IMG/VR virus record: IMGVR_UViG_3300017763_000182
Coordinates: 1-24,236 of that record
Source of the DNA: a virus
Strand: one strand, 5' to 3'
DNA length: 24,236 bases
The notes under the pieces are model-generated. The model was not told the DNA's origin and searched no databases. It was given only the letters and a program-made list of their open reading frames with translations. The position numbers were made by a program, and so were the translations under genes. Numbering within the stretch: the first letter of the stretch is position 1; every line of letters begins with the position of its first letter. This document shows positions 6,097 through 24,236 of the stretch, piece by piece.

Positions 6097-6795
6097 TTAA
6101 GCTACCTCTTCCCAATTAGGGTCTTGACTGTCTGAAACAGGTGACCAAGTAGGGTCTTGACTGTCTGCGACAGCCGACCAATTTGTTGTTTGACCGGGGA
6201 TAATAATACCCCATATATTTGGTGGAGAAATTTCTCCAGTACCACTAACCCCAATAACAGCAACATCGGCATTGGCTTGAGGCGATACCGTACCAACATT
6301 ACCAGTTCCTTGTACCCCTGCAACATCAATATAGTTGTTGAGCGCAAGCGTAACTGTGCCGATTGCCCCTGTTCCCGCAACGCCTGTAACAGCGAGGGTA
6401 TTATTTGATACGGGGATAACTGTGCCGATTGCCCCTGTACTTTCAACGCCTGTAACCGAAACATTAGCCGCAGCATCCACAGTGACAGTAGTGATTGCAC
6501 CCGTTCCCGAAACACCTGTAACTGCCGTATTTGCGGCAGCGGCAACAGTGACTGTTGTAACCGCGCCCGTTCCAACAACACCAGTGACGGAGGAGTTTGC
6601 GTCAGCGGTGACCGTAACCGAACCAATTGCACCCGTTCCCGAAGCGCCGGTAACAGAGACGTTAGCTTCAGCATCGACGGTAACTGTACCTGCGGCACTC
6701 GTTCCAGCAACACCAGTGACTGAGACAGGAAGGTCGCCTTCGCCCCACTCAAGTTGGCCCCAAGTGCCTCTGCCCCAACCATTAATGATTGCCAC
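6097..6795 (-). CDS. Beta-repeat virion protein, VTGVxGTGAIG repeats (232 aa)
   Basis: This gene uses a GTG start at 6793-6795, giving MAIINGWGRGTWGQLEWG, a start I recognise from marine phage proteins of unknown function. Residues about 24-185 are eight repeats of about 22 residues with core VSVTGVxGTGAIGTVTV, expected to fold as stacked beta strands. The C-terminus changes to a repeat of 11 residues, W-x-x-V-x-D-S-Q-D-P, in TNWSAVADSQDP, TWSPVSDSQDP and NWEEVA. It ends directly against the start of the long fibre, so a role at the tail tip or fibre base is plausible but inferred. A second frame is also open over the same span; it is rejected because it gives a Leu/Gln-rich nonsense-like protein. 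Confidence 0.85.
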   Translation of the reverse strand: MAIINGWGRGTWGQLEWGEGDLPVSVTGVAGTSAAGTVTVDAEANVSVTGASGTGAIGSVTVTADANSSVTGVVGTGAVTTVTVAAAANTAVTGVSGTGAITTVTVDAAANVSVTGVESTGAIGTVIPVSNNTLAVTGVAGTGAIGTVTLALNNYIDVAGVQGTGNVGTVSPQANADVAVIGVSGTGEISPPNIWGIIIPGQTTNWSAVADSQDPTWSPVSDSQDPNWEEVA

Positions 6796-10024: not shown

Positions 10025-10282
10025 TTATTTGCTTACTTTGCCACCACTTCGATAACCCTTGGACTTCATCTTACCGCCAGCCGCCATGCCTTTAGATTTC
10101 ATGGCACCGCCCATAGATTTTTTGGCTACCTTACCACCAGCCGCCATACCCTTGGGCTTCATCTTACCACCCGCCGCCATGCCTTTAGATTTCATGGCAC
10201 CGCCCATAGACATACCTTTGGCTTTGATCTTAGTTGTGCTTTTTTTCTTAGGAGCACCGTTTCCTAAATTAACTACGGACAT
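10025..10282 (-). CDS. Lys/Gly/Met repeat protein (85 aa)
   Basis: This tiny, strongly basic protein is built almost entirely of repeats. Blocks of GGAMKSKGMAAGGKMK and KGMAAGGKV recur, and the end is YRSGGKVSK. There are no acidic residues, so it should bind DNA or another polyanion, or sit against an acidic partner. The start has GAGG 6 bases ahead of the ATG. It is the last of four small basic genes in a row. A DNA-binding protein packed in the head, or a minor virion peptide, is possible; the sequence alone does not decide. The repeat is also visible at DNA level (38-bp exact copies). Confidence 0.8.
   Translation of the reverse strand: MSVVNLGNGAPKKKSTTKIKAKGMSMGGAMKSKGMAAGGKMKPKGMAAGGKVAKKSMGGAMKSKGMAAGGKMKSKGYRSGGKVSK
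10080..10210 (-). repeat. Exact 38-bp direct repeats in the Lys/Gly/Met repeat gene
   Basis: Identical 38-base copies lie at 10080-10117 and 10173-10210, 93 bases (31 codons) apart, with diverged half-copies between. They encode the SMGGAMKSKGMAAGG block. Such in-frame repeats can expand or contract by slippage or recombination. Confidence 0.9.
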
Positions 10283-15232: not shown

Positions 15233-15679
15233 TTAACTATGGTGTATATCGTTAGGATCAAGAATTGTGGCTAAAATCTCATCATCATTAAGAATTCTAA
15301 CCTCGCTGCCAAAGACCGCGGCATCTTCTCCGTTCAAACGAAATCTAGAACCGGCGTAACGAGCAAAAATTACCCATTTTCGTTCTTCACACCACGGCCC
15401 ACGGGGGTACTTTTCTTTATCTTCGTAGGCATCTGGCCCAAGTTTAAGAATGTAACCGACATTTGTTTGAACAGCGTCTTCTTCTAAAGTCTTAGTATTT
15501 AACAAAATACCGCCTTTACTTCGTTTCGGTGCTCGAAACGGCATAATCAAAATCCGCCAACCTGTTGGTTGAGGAAGTCTTTCAATTGCACTTGCTGTAA
15601 TCAAAGTGGGGTCTAACACGCGCTCCTCTTCGGGAACGTATAGCTTGGATAAATCCAAGGGTTCTTTACTTTCAGACAT
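15233..15679 (-). CDS. GroES-like co-chaperonin (148 aa)
   Basis: Residues about 36-140 fit the Cpn10/GroES fold: PTGWRILIMPFRAPKRSKGG opens the barrel, GGILL (56-60) corresponds to the GroEL-binding mobile loop (GGIVL in E. coli), and VGYILKLGP, RKWVIFARYAGSRFRLNGED and VRILNDDEILATI follow the later strands. GroES is about 97 residues; this protein has about 35 extra at the N-terminus (LSKLYVPEEERVLDP) and a short tail. It would cap host GroEL to help fold the capsid or other virion proteins, like T4 gp31 in role. Start ATG overlaps the upstream gene by 8 bases with AGGA ahead. Assignment by motif is strong; client proteins are inferred. Confidence 0.88.
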   Translation of the reverse strand: MSESKEPLDLSKLYVPEEERVLDPTLITASAIERLPQPTGWRILIMPFRAPKRSKGGILLNTKTLEEDAVQTNVGYILKLGPDAYEDKEKYPRGPWCEERKWVIFARYAGSRFRLNGEDAAVFGSEVRILNDDEILATILDPNDIHHS

Positions 15680-18609: not shown

Positions 18610-21600
18610 TTACATCCCGCCATTAAAATTTATATCGCCAATATCCGTCTGCAAATCTTGCAAGCGGGGAAGGCCCATACGAAGTCGTTCGGCATTAATT
18701 TCTCGAAGTTCTGCGAGAGTATACCCATATCTATCGGCATAATCTTGCTCGGGATTGTACGCTTGTTGGTTAGACGATAAAGAGTCTAACGAAGCAAACG
18801 AAGTTCCTTGCGTAGTATCCGTAGTATCCGTAGTATCCGCAGTCCCCGCAGTATCTTCGGTGTCTGTTTCGGCGGTGGAATCTTCAGAAGTTGTTCCTTC
18901 GGTGGCATCGAGGTCACTTAACGTAAACTGGGGCATAGGTCTATAAATTTGCGGGACATACACGTTGTCGCTCATCTCCTGATCTGGAGAATATTGATAC
19001 TCCGTAGGGTTAATGACCATACCTTGAGTAGGCGCGTAACCGCCCGTTTGAGTTTTAATCACATCCGAGAGGTCAAAATCAGGCCGAAGATCTTGCAAGT
19101 ACTGATAATCTTTTGCGTCCGGTACATCAAAAACTTCCGGCGGAGTAAACAAAGTTTCGGGAGTATCTACCACCGTGGCCGCAGGAGGCGTGTAAACAGC
19201 TTCCTCTGGAGGCGCGGGCGGGTTGTAAACCGAAGGCGGTAAGGGTGTATTGTCAATCGGATTAACAATAGGCTGTGATGCGACTACCGGTGTAGTGGTT
19301 CCCGGTGTAGTGGTTCCCGGTGTAGTGCTGACCGCTAAATCAGAAGTCAACGGATCGGTAGTTGCCGGTGTCGTAGATGCAGGAGTCACCACGGGAACAC
19401 TTGTCACAGGGTTATCTTCAGAGTTATCCGTTTGTGAAACAGGGGCATCTTCATACGCAGGCGTAGTTGATACCGGCCCGGTGGAAATCGGTCCCGTAGA
19501 CGTGCCAGAACCGGGCAAGTTGTAGTCAATAGAGGTAACCGGGATAGAACTGACCGGATCTATCATTATCTTCGGGCCACTGCCGCGGGCATAATCGCCC
19601 GGATCATAGTTTGTATACCGTTGGTCCCCTTGCGGAGAGTTCATCATCTGCGACTTAGTTTCGTATGAATTAAAATAAGGCGACTGATCCAACTGCAACC
19701 CTGCTTTTTCCGCCTTGCTTAAATTTTCTACAGAGCCATAGCCGCGGTCAGCCGCTCGTTGAGATAACTCTTCGGAAGTGAAAGTGCGAGGAACTATAGG
19801 GTTAAAATCGCCTTGAGGAACATTTTTGTTGCTGCCGTAGTTTCGGTACTCCAGACTCTTTACCAAAGGCTGTGACGGCGTGTTTCCTATCCCAGAACTT
19901 GCCCACGCCTCGGGACCCAGACGTTTGGCTAAATTCATCCTATTTGGGTCGTTTAACGCTTCTTCGTATGTTTGCGCGGCACCACCCTGATTAAACGGCT
20001 GCACAGGTGTTCCACGTGAAACATTGCCGGCTCCCGCTAGAGGACCCGTACTGTATTTATTCAACAGGTTTGTTAAACCCTGCGTAACTCTAGGTTTGTT
20101 CATAGGGGACACCATACCACCTTGATTAAATCTTTGTACCGCGCCGCCTTGGGCACGACCTACTTTGGCTTTTAAAATAGCCTTACGAGCTTCGGGCGTG
20201 ATCCGCAAGCCGCGAACCGAGATGTGCGCTTGCTCTCTGTTCGGGGTGTTGTACAACTCTTCGTTTATATAAGCTTCTTCGCCAATCTGCCTTTCTAGTT
20301 GATCAATCATCAACGGTTTACCACGGTCATTTTCTAACGGCAAAGAAATCTCATCGTCGTAATCCATCCCGTATTTTTTAGCCATTTTCTTTAGCAACGC
20401 GGGTATTTTTTTATCGTATACGTCGATGTAGCCTTTTTTGGTAGGACCGGTGTTATACATACTGTGTGGAACAAACCCCGGTGGAACTGCAAACGTATCA
20501 AAGCCCTCTTCGGCCGCGGCCAACAACATACGTTCTACGGATAGGTTTAACCAATCGCTTCGGTGAGGAAGAGCTACGCCCTCTGATTTAAGCTTATCTT
20601 TGTCGCGTTTCTGTGGTTTAAAAGCTTCTGATTGAAACTCTTCTGCAAGAAAAACTTTGTTGTCATCAACATCTACTCTAGATGTAACGCGGTTATGCGC
20701 AAAAGTGTTTATCTTCCCCTCTGTGGGGTTTTCTCTATCAAAATGCTGTTCTATAAAAAAATCCGTGTCGCCTTCTTTGGGCAAAGATCTAAAAACAAAC
20801 GTTCGCGCAGTGTCTCGCCCTTTTCCCGGTAATAAAAAAGTAGTGTAAGATTTAGAACTACCCAAGACTTCAACATCTACCGGACGATCTTGCCGTTCAA
20901 ATACCGCTAAAACCTCTTCCCTAGTTAACGTGCCTTTCTTTCTAGTTGAAGATTCAAAACCGACTTGATCTTCGTCTAGTTGTCGGAGCCGCTGCTCTTC
21001 TAGTTTTAGCTCTTCTTGCAGGTTTAGCAGCTTCAAAGACTCTTCTTTAATCCCTAAAAGATCTTTTTGGTTTTGTTTTCGGATGTCGGCCATCCACTGC
21101 TCCGGAGTGCCTCTTTCTCGTTTAACATTGGTAATAGCCACCGGAATTTTAGCAACAAACGGCTTTTCAGGATCGTAAACAGGGGTTCCTTGCCTTGCCG
21201 CTTCTTCCGTGCGTTGTCGTAAGTTTGTGTCACCCCTATCTAAAGCGTCATAAAAACCTCTGTCGCCGTACAACAGACCTTCCGTATTGTTCATTACGTC
21301 TTGCCGCATTGTTTGAGACTGCGCGGTGGCAGTTGTTGGGTCTAACATCTCCAGCGCGTTTCTTTCCGCACGCAAAACAAAATCGCGATCACGACCAGCC
21401 CGAATAGCCAACTCCGCAGCAACATCTTGCTCCATACGGGCCGCTCCGGGCGCACGATTTTTATCTTCTTTTGCTATTTTTAAAGCTTTAGTGGCCGTTG
21501 CTTGTTGTTTAGCAAAGCCAGCTTGGTTTTGCCAAAACTGTTTGTTTGGGGCCTTAAAATCCTTCGCCATGCCTTCTAGCATAGTAATAGTCTTAGATAC

Positions 21601-23385
21601 GTCTTGCGCAGTAAATTCAGCGTCCGCAGGTACGTTAAACGAGCCGGGTTCCGAAGACTGCGCTCCGCGAATTCTATCAACAATGCTTGGTTTATCGCCA
21701 AATTTTGATCTAAGTTGATTTGCCGCCTTCGTCAACTTTGCTGCGCTCCTAGCGCCTAGCTCACCCGATTCCGCGTAGGATATAAAATCTGGCCGCGAAA
21801 TTGTAAGAGCATCCTCTGGTAACTCGTCTATAACGTTTTTACCTAAAATATATCTATTAGCTATATTTGTGGACGAATTAGCGTCATACACGTATGAAGT
21901 AACAATAGCATTTGAAAGTGTACCCAAAGAGTCTTCTAGACTTCCACGGTTACTTCTTTCTCGTATGCTAGCGTCAGAACTTAACGGGGCTATAGACTGT
22001 ACTTGTTCCGATTGCAGTGCTTCTCGCCCCTTTTGCAACTCATCAAAATAAGCGTTTATTTCAACATCGGTGGTTAAACCCATGTTTCGCATGGCAACTA
22101 TTTCCGGGTTAGTTCCCGCAAGAAGATAATCCCCCGTGGGTCTGGGTGTCGCAAAGCCTTCTTGAAACTGAATAGCTTCTTGAATATTTTTTGCTAAAGC
22201 TTCTTTTATTTGTTTGAAGCGATAGTCTTTTAACTTCTCGGCTTGCGTAAAATCTTGTCTCGGCATTTTTGCATCTGCCCGCAAATAAAAAGTATTTGTT
22301 TCTGAGTCGTAGAAATTATTGCTTTCCTCCATCTTTAACAGGGAAGACTTTTTACCTAATCTTTCAGCCGCCGCTTCATATTCAATAGTGTTTGGATTTT
22401 CCGGGCTACCGAAAGAAGGACTAAGCACTACCTTGGCCTCCGCAAGAGTTGGATAGTTTTTTTCTAAACCCGGAAAATAAATAACAGAAGATAAAGGAAC
22501 TTTTAAAGGCTTCCCGTCTCTAGCGGCCAAACCATCTTTGATTTCTTTACTTAGTGCAAAAAAACTGTCTTTGATTTTAAAATCGCCCAAAAACTTGCGC
22601 GGTTGATTGTCTACGCCTAAAAATACGCCCGTTTCGGCAGCGGCTAAATTAGGTGGCTGCTGCTCTTCAAAACGCAACCGCTCATATTCCGCGACATCTG
22701 CGCCAATCTCTACGCCCGTGCGACCACCAAATACGCCAAACGAAGTGCCTTCCGGTACAGAAGAAAAAGCCCTTGCCGCAGGGAACATAGCAAGCCCTTC
22801 CGCAAACTGACCGGGGCGAGTAATGTTGCCTTCAGCATCTTGCGTAGTAATGTTTCCACGGGCAACGTTCCGCCCGCCACCAATGACGCTTTCAACCATC
22901 GATTTAGGTAAACCCGGTAATGCACCAATGCCTTGGCTTACCTTTTCGCGGGCCTCGGCTTGTTCGCTAGCATCCCCAAACAATAACTTGTTGCCAAACT
23001 TTAAGCCGCCACTAATTGAATCGACAATAGGCGGCGCTGCTAGCCGTGGGTTTGCATATCTACCCGGCGTATAGCTGGTGCGAAGTAATTCTGGATTACC
23101 CATGTCCGCAGGGTTTTGGAAAGCTTCTGGGATCTGGGTATAGGTGGACTCTGGCTCCCTAACTACGTCCGTTTCAAGCGGTACAAGAGGGCTTACCAGC
23201 GTTTTAAGTAGGTTTTCGTCGGCTTCTGGTATGCCTCGGACGGTCTTCGGGCCATAATTTTCCGGCTGTACTTGGTTTACCGCGCCAAAAAGCTCGGCAT
23301 CCGCATCCTGACCCGCCAACGCCTCTTCAAGCATTCGTTGACGTGCCAATATCTCAGCGGGTGTTAAATCTGACCGTTCAGCCAT
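18610..23385 (-). CDS. Giant multidomain protein, unknown function, between terminase and portal (1591 aa)
   Basis: The ATG overlaps the terminase stop (8 bases). Residues 1-250 are of unknown type. Around 775-800 lies a charged coiled coil. Residues about 900-1010 (LAEEFQSEAF, VERMLLAAAEEGFDTFAVPP, YDKKIPALLKKMAKKYG) resemble a domain in large polyvalent phage proteins where I recall EEIQSDW, AA..GYD..A and LP.....KKYG; its activity is not known to me. At about 1078-1135 Gly-Gly motifs occur (RAQGGAVQRFNQGG, PFNQGGAA). From 1280 onward the chain is Pro/Thr/Asp-rich with TTPGTTTPGTTTP (about 1355) and TTDTTDTT (about 1520), ending in a helix ELREINAERLRMGLPRLQDL. No signal peptide is seen. 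An ejected internal virion protein is one option; an early cytoplasmic role is another. Confidence 0.75.
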   Translation of the reverse strand: MAERSDLTPAEILARQRMLEEALAGQDADAELFGAVNQVQPENYGPKTVRGIPEADENLLKTLVSPLVPLETDVVREPESTYTQIPEAFQNPADMGNPELLRTSYTPGRYANPRLAAPPIVDSISGGLKFGNKLLFGDASEQAEAREKVSQGIGALPGLPKSMVESVIGGGRNVARGNITTQDAEGNITRPGQFAEGLAMFPAARAFSSVPEGTSFGVFGGRTGVEIGADVAEYERLRFEEQQPPNLAAAETGVFLGVDNQPRKFLGDFKIKDSFFALSKEIKDGLAARDGKPLKVPLSSVIYFPGLEKNYPTLAEAKVVLSPSFGSPENPNTIEYEAAAERLGKKSSLLKMEESNNFYDSETNTFYLRADAKMPRQDFTQAEKLKDYRFKQIKEALAKNIQEAIQFQEGFATPRPTGDYLLAGTNPEIVAMRNMGLTTDVEINAYFDELQKGREALQSEQVQSIAPLSSDASIRERSNRGSLEDSLGTLSNAIVTSYVYDANSSTNIANRYILGKNVIDELPEDALTISRPDFISYAESGELGARSAAKLTKAANQLRSKFGDKPSIVDRIRGAQSSEPGSFNVPADAEFTAQDVSKTITMLEGMAKDFKAPNKQFWQNQAGFAKQQATATKALKIAKEDKNRAPGAARMEQDVAAELAIRAGRDRDFVLRAERNALEMLDPTTATAQSQTMRQDVMNNTEGLLYGDRGFYDALDRGDTNLRQRTEEAARQGTPVYDPEKPFVAKIPVAITNVKRERGTPEQWMADIRKQNQKDLLGIKEESLKLLNLQEELKLEEQRLRQLDEDQVGFESSTRKKGTLTREEVLAVFERQDRPVDVEVLGSSKSYTTFLLPGKGRDTARTFVFRSLPKEGDTDFFIEQHFDRENPTEGKINTFAHNRVTSRVDVDDNKVFLAEEFQSEAFKPQKRDKDKLKSEGVALPHRSDWLNLSVERMLLAAAEEGFDTFAVPPGFVPHSMYNTGPTKKGYIDVYDKKIPALLKKMAKKYGMDYDDEISLPLENDRGKPLMIDQLERQIGEEAYINEELYNTPNREQAHISVRGLRITPEARKAILKAKVGRAQGGAVQRFNQGGMVSPMNKPRVTQGLTNLLNKYSTGPLAGAGNVSRGTPVQPFNQGGAAQTYEEALNDPNRMNLAKRLGPEAWASSGIGNTPSQPLVKSLEYRNYGSNKNVPQGDFNPIVPRTFTSEELSQRAADRGYGSVENLSKAEKAGLQLDQSPYFNSYETKSQMMNSPQGDQRYTNYDPGDYARGSGPKIMIDPVSSIPVTSIDYNLPGSGTSTGPISTGPVSTTPAYEDAPVSQTDNSEDNPVTSVPVVTPASTTPATTDPLTSDLAVSTTPGTTTPGTTTPVVASQPIVNPIDNTPLPPSVYNPPAPPEEAVYTPPAATVVDTPETLFTPPEVFDVPDAKDYQYLQDLRPDFDLSDVIKTQTGGYAPTQGMVINPTEYQYSPDQEMSDNVYVPQIYRPMPQFTLSDLDATEGTTSEDSTAETDTEDTAGTADTTDTTDTTQGTSFASLDSLSSNQQAYNPEQDYADRYGYTLAELREINAERLRMGLPRLQDLQTDIGDINFNGGM
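18814..18842 (-). repeat. 9-bp tandem repeat encoding Asp-Thr-Thr
   Basis: Three near-identical copies of the 9-base unit gtagtatcc run in frame within the C-terminal linker of the giant gene, followed by diverged copies. They encode DTT units in an acidic threonine-rich segment. Copy number is likely variable between relatives. Confidence 0.75.
19285..19330 (-). repeat. 15-bp tandem repeat encoding Gly-Thr-Thr-Thr-Pro
   Basis: Three copies of a 15-base unit (cggtgtagtggttcc, the last one diverged) lie in frame in the linker of the giant gene. They encode GTTTP units, an extended proline/threonine linker. Slippage or recombination would change linker length without breaking the frame. Confidence 0.8.
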
Positions 23386-24236
23386 AGTACGCTCCAGCGT
23401 TAATATTTACGTATTCGTCGCCTTCTTCCCAATCATCCGTAGGCAACTGTACAAAATTTCCCTGCCGATAGCGCATCAAAGCCTGAGTAGTACTATCAAC
23501 CAAATCATCGTGGGTCCCGTTAGGAAAAGCTGCGCATTCTTCAATAACTTCATGCGCCCACGACTCATCCGGTGCCCATATCATACCAGCTTCAAATAAA
23601 GGTGAAATACTGTGGACCCTAGAAAGCTTGTCATTTCCACGACTTGGAGTGAAATTTACCACAGGAATGCCAACTTGTCGCAATTCCTGCGTCAAAGGGG
23701 TCCCTGATGCCTTCGCCTCAACAATAACCGTCTCAGGCTCCCAATACTTGTACTGCTCCATCGCAATTTCTTTTAACTCAGGGAAATCCCACCGACCCTT
23801 CTTCGCATCCAACAATATTAAATGCGCCGCACCACCTATCTCCTCCGGATAAAATACACCCCAAGTAGTAATAGCACTATAGTCCGCCGTCTCCCGCTTA
23901 CTGAACGCCGTGTCATAACTCTGGATCACATACTGCAAATTAGGGATATGATCCTTCTCCCACACGTTCCACCACTCACGCTTCAAGATAGCCAACGTCT
24001 CAGACGTGGGGTTCTGCTGATACTGCGCGTTCCACTGATAAGCAGGAATAGATGCCTTAACCGACTCCAACTCCTCCTTCTTCCAAAACTCAGGCCAACA
24101 AGGCTCACCCGACTCAAATATAGCCGGTAACTCAACTACCTCCCACTGATCCGCAAAAGGGTCTTTAGTCATTTGACGGATCAAGTTGCCCGTCATGTCC
24201 TTCTCCGACCACCGCGTCTGGATCAAAACAATAGCT
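23378..24236 (-). CDS. terL: Terminase large subunit, C-terminal part (285 aa visible, runs off the right edge)
   Basis: The frame is open to the window edge, reading A-I-V-L-I-Q-T-R-W, so the N-terminal ATPase is upstream of the window and the TTG at 24226 is not a real start. AIVLIQTRWSEKDMTGNLI is the typical end of the ATPase domain (motor coupling region). The nuclease domain follows with its acidic residues: Asp in VIQSYDTAFSK, Glu in ETVIVEAKASG, and Asp in GTHDDLVDST. These are the expected metal ligands of the RNase H-like nuclease that cuts concatemeric DNA during packaging. The end is acidic (DDWEEGDEYVN). It overlaps the giant gene by 8 bases. Terminase assignment is firm. Confidence 0.95.
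   Translation of the reverse strand, partial: AIVLIQTRWSEKDMTGNLIRQMTKDPFADQWEVVELPAIFESGEPCWPEFWKKEELESVKASIPAYQWNAQYQQNPTSETLAILKREWWNVWEKDHIPNLQYVIQSYDTAFSKRETADYSAITTWGVFYPEEIGGAAHLILLDAKKGRWDFPELKEIAMEQYKYWEPETVIVEAKASGTPLTQELRQVGIPVVNFTPSRGNDKLSRVHSISPLFEAGMIWAPDESWAHEVIEECAAFPNGTHDDLVDSTTQALMRYRQGNFVQLPTDDWEEGDEYVNINAGAYYG

Follow-up and report, generated by a model that had tools for sequence, protein, structure and literature searches.

The window, the whole stretch of 24,236 bases of DNA from a marine tailed phage analyzed here, carries a block of late genes that lies on the minus strand throughout. The genes follow in the order TerL (cut), giant ORF, portal, GroES-like protein, head proteins, and further late genes. 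As the preliminary description had stated, a gene for a 1591-residue protein lies between terminase and portal and overlaps the former: the giant ORF is intact and starts inside the TerL end with an overlap of 8 nt, and the portal begins 16 nt past its stop. The GroES-like co-chaperonin gene in the head block (15233-15679; Cpn10, PHROG 3188) is common to kin phages, and a further ORF at 6097-6795 contains tandem repeats of 33 bp (6112-6181) and 66 bp (6479-6654). The main features are given below by window position and by residue of the giant protein.

23378..24236, minus strand: TerL, C-terminal part, cut by the contig end, the upstream border of the slot (Terminase_6C, PHROG 38)
18610..23385, minus strand: giant ORF, 1591 codons, a single intact frame with an ATG start
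22756..23385, minus strand: N-module, residues 1-210 (omega 0.06-0.08; HMM and alignment)
20104..23377, minus strand: stretch of 3274 nt (residues 3-1095) missing from contig L005, in which start codon, frame, and flanks are retained
22096..22755, minus strand: LPD23/zincin metallopeptidase-like region without HExxH, residues 211-430, rapidly diverging (alignment, hhalign, omega)
22177..22191, minus strand: KNIQE, residues 399-403, opposite the HEIQH zinc site of relatives (alignment)
21151..22095, minus strand: variable region, residues 431-745 (24% identity to L003)
20161..21150, minus strand: divergent EEIQSDWHQ domain with a predicted GNAT-like fold, residues 746-1075 (alignment and structure model)
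20101..20160, minus strand: paired GG tags, RAQGGAVQRFNQGGMV, residues 1076-1095 (two tags)
18613..20100, minus strand: C-module, residues 1096-1591, a Pro/Thr/Asp linker and a conserved end, alone in L005
16149..18593, minus strand: portal, the downstream border of the slot (PHROG 1216, 3e-54)

The giant protein itself had no match in sequence searches of Pfam, PHROG, NCBIfam, or PDB, and a match to RavA with an E value of 1.6 was disregarded. A tblastn search of phage records with the whole protein returned no match, and residues 746-1105 gave a single weak match in HTVC028P (E = 3e-4). Full-length versions were found in the viral contigs L002, L003, and L004 (best-segment identity of 88, 68, and 81%, respectively) and a version of 513 aa in L005, and all four carry the gene between TerL and portal. 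In comparisons with L002 and L004, residues 1-210 and 746-1075 show omega values of 0.06-0.14, indicating strong purifying selection. Residues 211-745 are more diverged (dS of 0.2-0.4 versus 0.07-0.13; omega of 0.5-0.8), with omega reaching 0.77-0.80 in residues 211-430, as would be expected if the central part has been exchanged or evolves fast. Because copies occupy the same place in four contigs and omega is low, the giant ORF is not a chance frame but encodes a real protein.

The protein also appears to be modular. When positions 1-1118 of L005 are aligned with window positions 20103-23603, 7 nt replace the missing 3274 nt and the frame is preserved; identity is 96.5% before the giant gene begins and 96-99% from residue 1096 onward. 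Read from these two sequences, the pair is a natural cassette polymorphism, with L005 as the cassette-minus version. C-module relatives also occur in L012 and L013 (portal identity of 84 and 83%), where L012 carries the module behind a different N-terminal part and L013 is cut at its start. The N-module is near-identical in close relatives and is related to the beginnings of slot proteins in L020, L024, L029, and L096; the helical front once proposed for this end is weakly borne out, residues 90-210 being modeled at a pLDDT of about 30-55.

The C-module is probably disordered. Its Pro/Thr-rich stretch (residues 1286-1425; 20% P, 19% T) and the 15-bp (19287-19327) and 9-bp (18811-18855) arrays in the giant ORF agree with the Pro/Thr/Asp linker and tandem repeats described earlier. 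A loose GG tag pattern matches slot proteins 89 times, versus 22 in shuffles, but its density is equal in ORFs downstream of the portal, which rules out the tag in this simple form as a slot-specific signal. A strict pattern, which was picked after inspecting the data, is in excess in slot proteins, in small basic proteins encoded between portal and GroES, and in the right-end cluster of four kin genomes, with no excess in their head, tail, or early genes. In phage DSL-LC04, MANGGIVQRFQEG occurs in a right-end-cluster protein adjoining an annotated "DNA transfer protein" and is near-identical to RAQGGAVQRFNQGG of the window. From these patterns, GG tags may reasonably be supposed to signal packaging or ejection. 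Several short GG-bearing ORFs are present in the window, among them a small basic protein with MKSKGMAAGGK-type repeats (10025-10282).

Over residues 211-430, the giant protein aligns with a group of HEIQH- or HEVQH-bearing slot proteins, some of which match LPD23 or DUF6782 (Pfam LPD23 is matched by 4 of 7 members). Comparison of this region with the HExxH-bearing set by hhalign gave a probability of 97% (E = 7e-11), versus 0.3% for a control with an unrelated profile. The link of the giant protein to LPD23 is one of homology to LPD23-matching sequences, which spans the zincin part, rather than a direct Pfam match. Residues from about 300 to 412 share the FPxLxxxYP...IQxxxxxxEGF frame of the putative metallopeptidase families LPD23 (PF18838) and DUF6782 (PF20573), but the window protein reaches neither model and KNIQE replaces HExxH. 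By alignment, then, the zincin-like domain of the giant protein no longer bears its zinc site. HExxH is absent from all proteins found with both the zincin region and a downstream EEIQSDWHQ-type domain, and present in all those without that domain. Independent losses were considered and set aside; since the tree fits one origin of the loss (support 72/92), this exceptionless division of GNAT-fused from HExxH-bearing proteins may go back to a single event. A structure search with a model of the zincin-like region found no zincin fold, and its list was filled by helices.

The domain that follows, at residues of about 738 to 1075, is shared by about 80 viral loci, nearly all of which encode large multidomain phage proteins, mostly of 500-4000 residues, and by 16 loci in genome assemblies of bacteria or archaea. 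The ORFs that bear it have terminase, internal virion protein, portal, tail, and endolysin genes among their neighbors. Across the domain regions of L095-L172, no Pfam or NCBIfam model or name was found, and it could be a published LPD that lacks such a model. The window copy retains the near-invariant H881, N893, H897, R899, R903, E916, Q918, and S919, and EAFK takes the place of DWHQ in other members. An AlphaFold2 model built from 62 sequences (pLDDT 69.8, pTM 0.62) was compared with known structures, and GNATs made up 50 of the 50 PDB matches listed by Foldseek (best E = 1.5e-3) and 50 of the 50 listed by VIA-align (Z of 8.3 to 6.6, best over 103 residues), although the pLDDT is no more than 69.8 and such Z values lie at a level where chance matches occur. 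The best 14 structure matches in BFVD are all large phage proteins. Because all listed PDB matches are GNATs, the predicted fold is likely GNAT-like. The similarity to GNAT N-acetyltransferases concerns the predicted fold; the canonical Q/RxxGxG/A acetyl-CoA loop is absent from residues 905-960, read directly, and the domain carries instead an EEIQSDWHQ-type signature that is partly lost in the window copy. For want of the loop, we have not filed the domain as a GNAT.

The preliminary description had recognized a domain resembling those of polyvalent phage proteins. The resemblance holds and its motifs are present (EEFQSE at residues 915-920, AAEEGFD at 957-963, and KKYG at 1003-1006), but residues 880-1020, singled out there, cover too little of it: the similarity reaches about 211-430 and 738-1075. 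With a degenerate zincin-like region and a GNAT-like domain both recognizable, the statement that no function is visible was too pessimistic.

The position of the gene between TerL and portal, to which importance had been attached, stands, but it is not peculiar to the giant protein. A search with the zincin region that made no use of the portal found 18 loci, 16 of which are immediately upstream of the same portal family, so relatives do keep the gene at this place. Throughout the portal lineage, 0.1-6.1 kb lie between TerL and portal, filled by mostly unrelated large proteins; in 35 further portal-bearing loci with TerL visible, including one duplicate, this distance is 214-6140 nt, and the insert is at least 700 nt in 33. 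For most inserts neither Pfam nor PHROG gave a match, and those matched include DUF6884, LPD23, a Hint module, PcfJ, and DUF6782. Within the intervals of L012-L090, one slot protein matches Hint (autoprocessing) and four match DUF6884. By portal and TerL, the named kin are Pelagibacter phages HTVC027P and HTVC023P, 023Pt_psg01, and DSL-LC04, with portal identity of about 50%. Two proteins fill the slot of HTVC027P and two that of 023Pt_psg01; DSL-LC04 has a PcfJ-like protein of about 825 aa there, and HTVC023P one protein of about 200 aa. These proteins share the slot, the portal family, and in most cases GG tags with the window protein, but have no detectable sequence similarity to it. The interval is empty in MinM2, CRP-901, L062, and L087. 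The TerL-portal interval is a variable slot of the whole portal lineage and not the oddity of one phage.

The genes of phage polyvalent proteins lie near virion genes, and two of these proteins, P1 DdrB and the N4 virion RNA polymerase (vRNAP), are packaged (Iyer et al. 2017, PMC5512222). Like these, the giant protein is a large multidomain chain with a zincin-like region, encoded among the packaging and head genes of a portal-terminase phage; unlike domains, both degenerate, are combined in one chain, and the gene lies near virion genes, between TerL and portal. It differs from them in having no zinc site, in occupying a fixed TerL-portal slot, in its fusion to a GG-tagged Pro/Thr/Asp module, and in bearing a domain that neither Pfam nor NCBIfam lists. 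Architecture and context thus agree with those described by Iyer et al. for polyvalent proteins, in a degenerate, rearranged form, and we are highly confident of the polyvalent-protein architecture. The zincin match, the EEIQSDWHQ kinship, the GNAT-like fold, the virion-gene context, the kept position, selection, modularity, the recurrence of GG tags, and precedent together support our preferred reading, that this is a divergent phage polyvalent protein in a TerL-portal cargo slot, presumably packaged and delivered, which we consider reasonably probable. Against it count the failure of the protein itself to match any Pfam, PHROG, or NCBIfam model, the decay of both enzymatic signatures, the zincin fold search that found nothing, and the equal density of GG tags downstream of the portal. 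With regard to a tail tape-measure protein, which would be a long helical chain matched in length to the tail and encoded with tail genes, the gene sits in the packaging block and the recognized domains are unlike tape-measure.

The protein might instead be a morphogenesis factor that stays outside the host cell, such as an internal core, portal-plug, or packaging-assistance protein placed here for assembly reasons. Its fixed position beside the portal, strongly conserved N-module, lost enzymatic sites, and long low-complexity tail would suit such a role, but the slots of relatives hold unrelated proteins or, in a few, none, so an essential assembly part is hardly plausible; together with domains that are those of polyvalent proteins, this makes the explanation unlikely. 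An intracellular host-takeover protein that merely lies in the late operon and stays unpackaged is less probable still. Polyvalent-type domains have been reported outside polyvalent proteins too, and no virion proteomics for pelagiphages or this lineage was found in the literature; however, the translational overlap with TerL, the late-block position, and the typical link of polyvalent phage proteins to virion genes argue against it. Neither gp41 nor gp42 is mentioned in the text of the HTVC027P transcriptome paper. A decaying polyvalent-protein remnant kept by chance would account for the lost HExxH and DWHQ, the missing residues 3-1095 in L005, and the omega of 0.5-0.8 in residues 211-745, but is very improbable given an intact frame in four contigs and the low omega of residues 1-210 and 746-1075.

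As a divergent polyvalent protein, the giant protein would be made alongside the packaging and head proteins, as the observed gene order and translational overlap indicate, and presumably expressed late. It would then become part of the capsid interior and enter the host together with the DNA; packaging and ejection are probable, whereas loading through the portal, which the preliminary description had suggested, would be conjecture. In the host, the GNAT-like domain and the variable central cassette may act on host factors, and the zincin-like domain without its zinc site would most likely serve as a binding or spacer domain. With HExxH and DWHQ lost and no acetyl-CoA loop, an enzymatic effector role is uncertain. 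The GG-tagged C-module perhaps attaches the protein to the virion, because it can occupy the slot by itself when the first 1095 residues are absent; that it is a packaging signal is a tentative and somewhat doubtful suggestion.

A bolder proposal, which we regard as speculative and rather unlikely, is that the interval is an exchangeable cargo dock in which a constant GG-tagged C-module loads fused cassettes into the capsid, recombination swaps the cassettes, and the EEIQSDWHQ domain represents a new GNAT-like effector family. If true, the slot would be a natural protein-delivery system. Polyvalent proteins were already known; what is new here is the slot, the domain without a name, and the contig that naturally lacks the cassette. 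With the GNAT-like prediction, a recurrent domain of giant phage proteins that is nameless in Pfam and NCBIfam receives its first structural hypothesis, and the natural pair with and without the cassette offers a way into how capsid cargo is chosen. The slot defines one fixed, testable place in marine phages, whose named kin infect SAR11, where each phage carries a different large protein.
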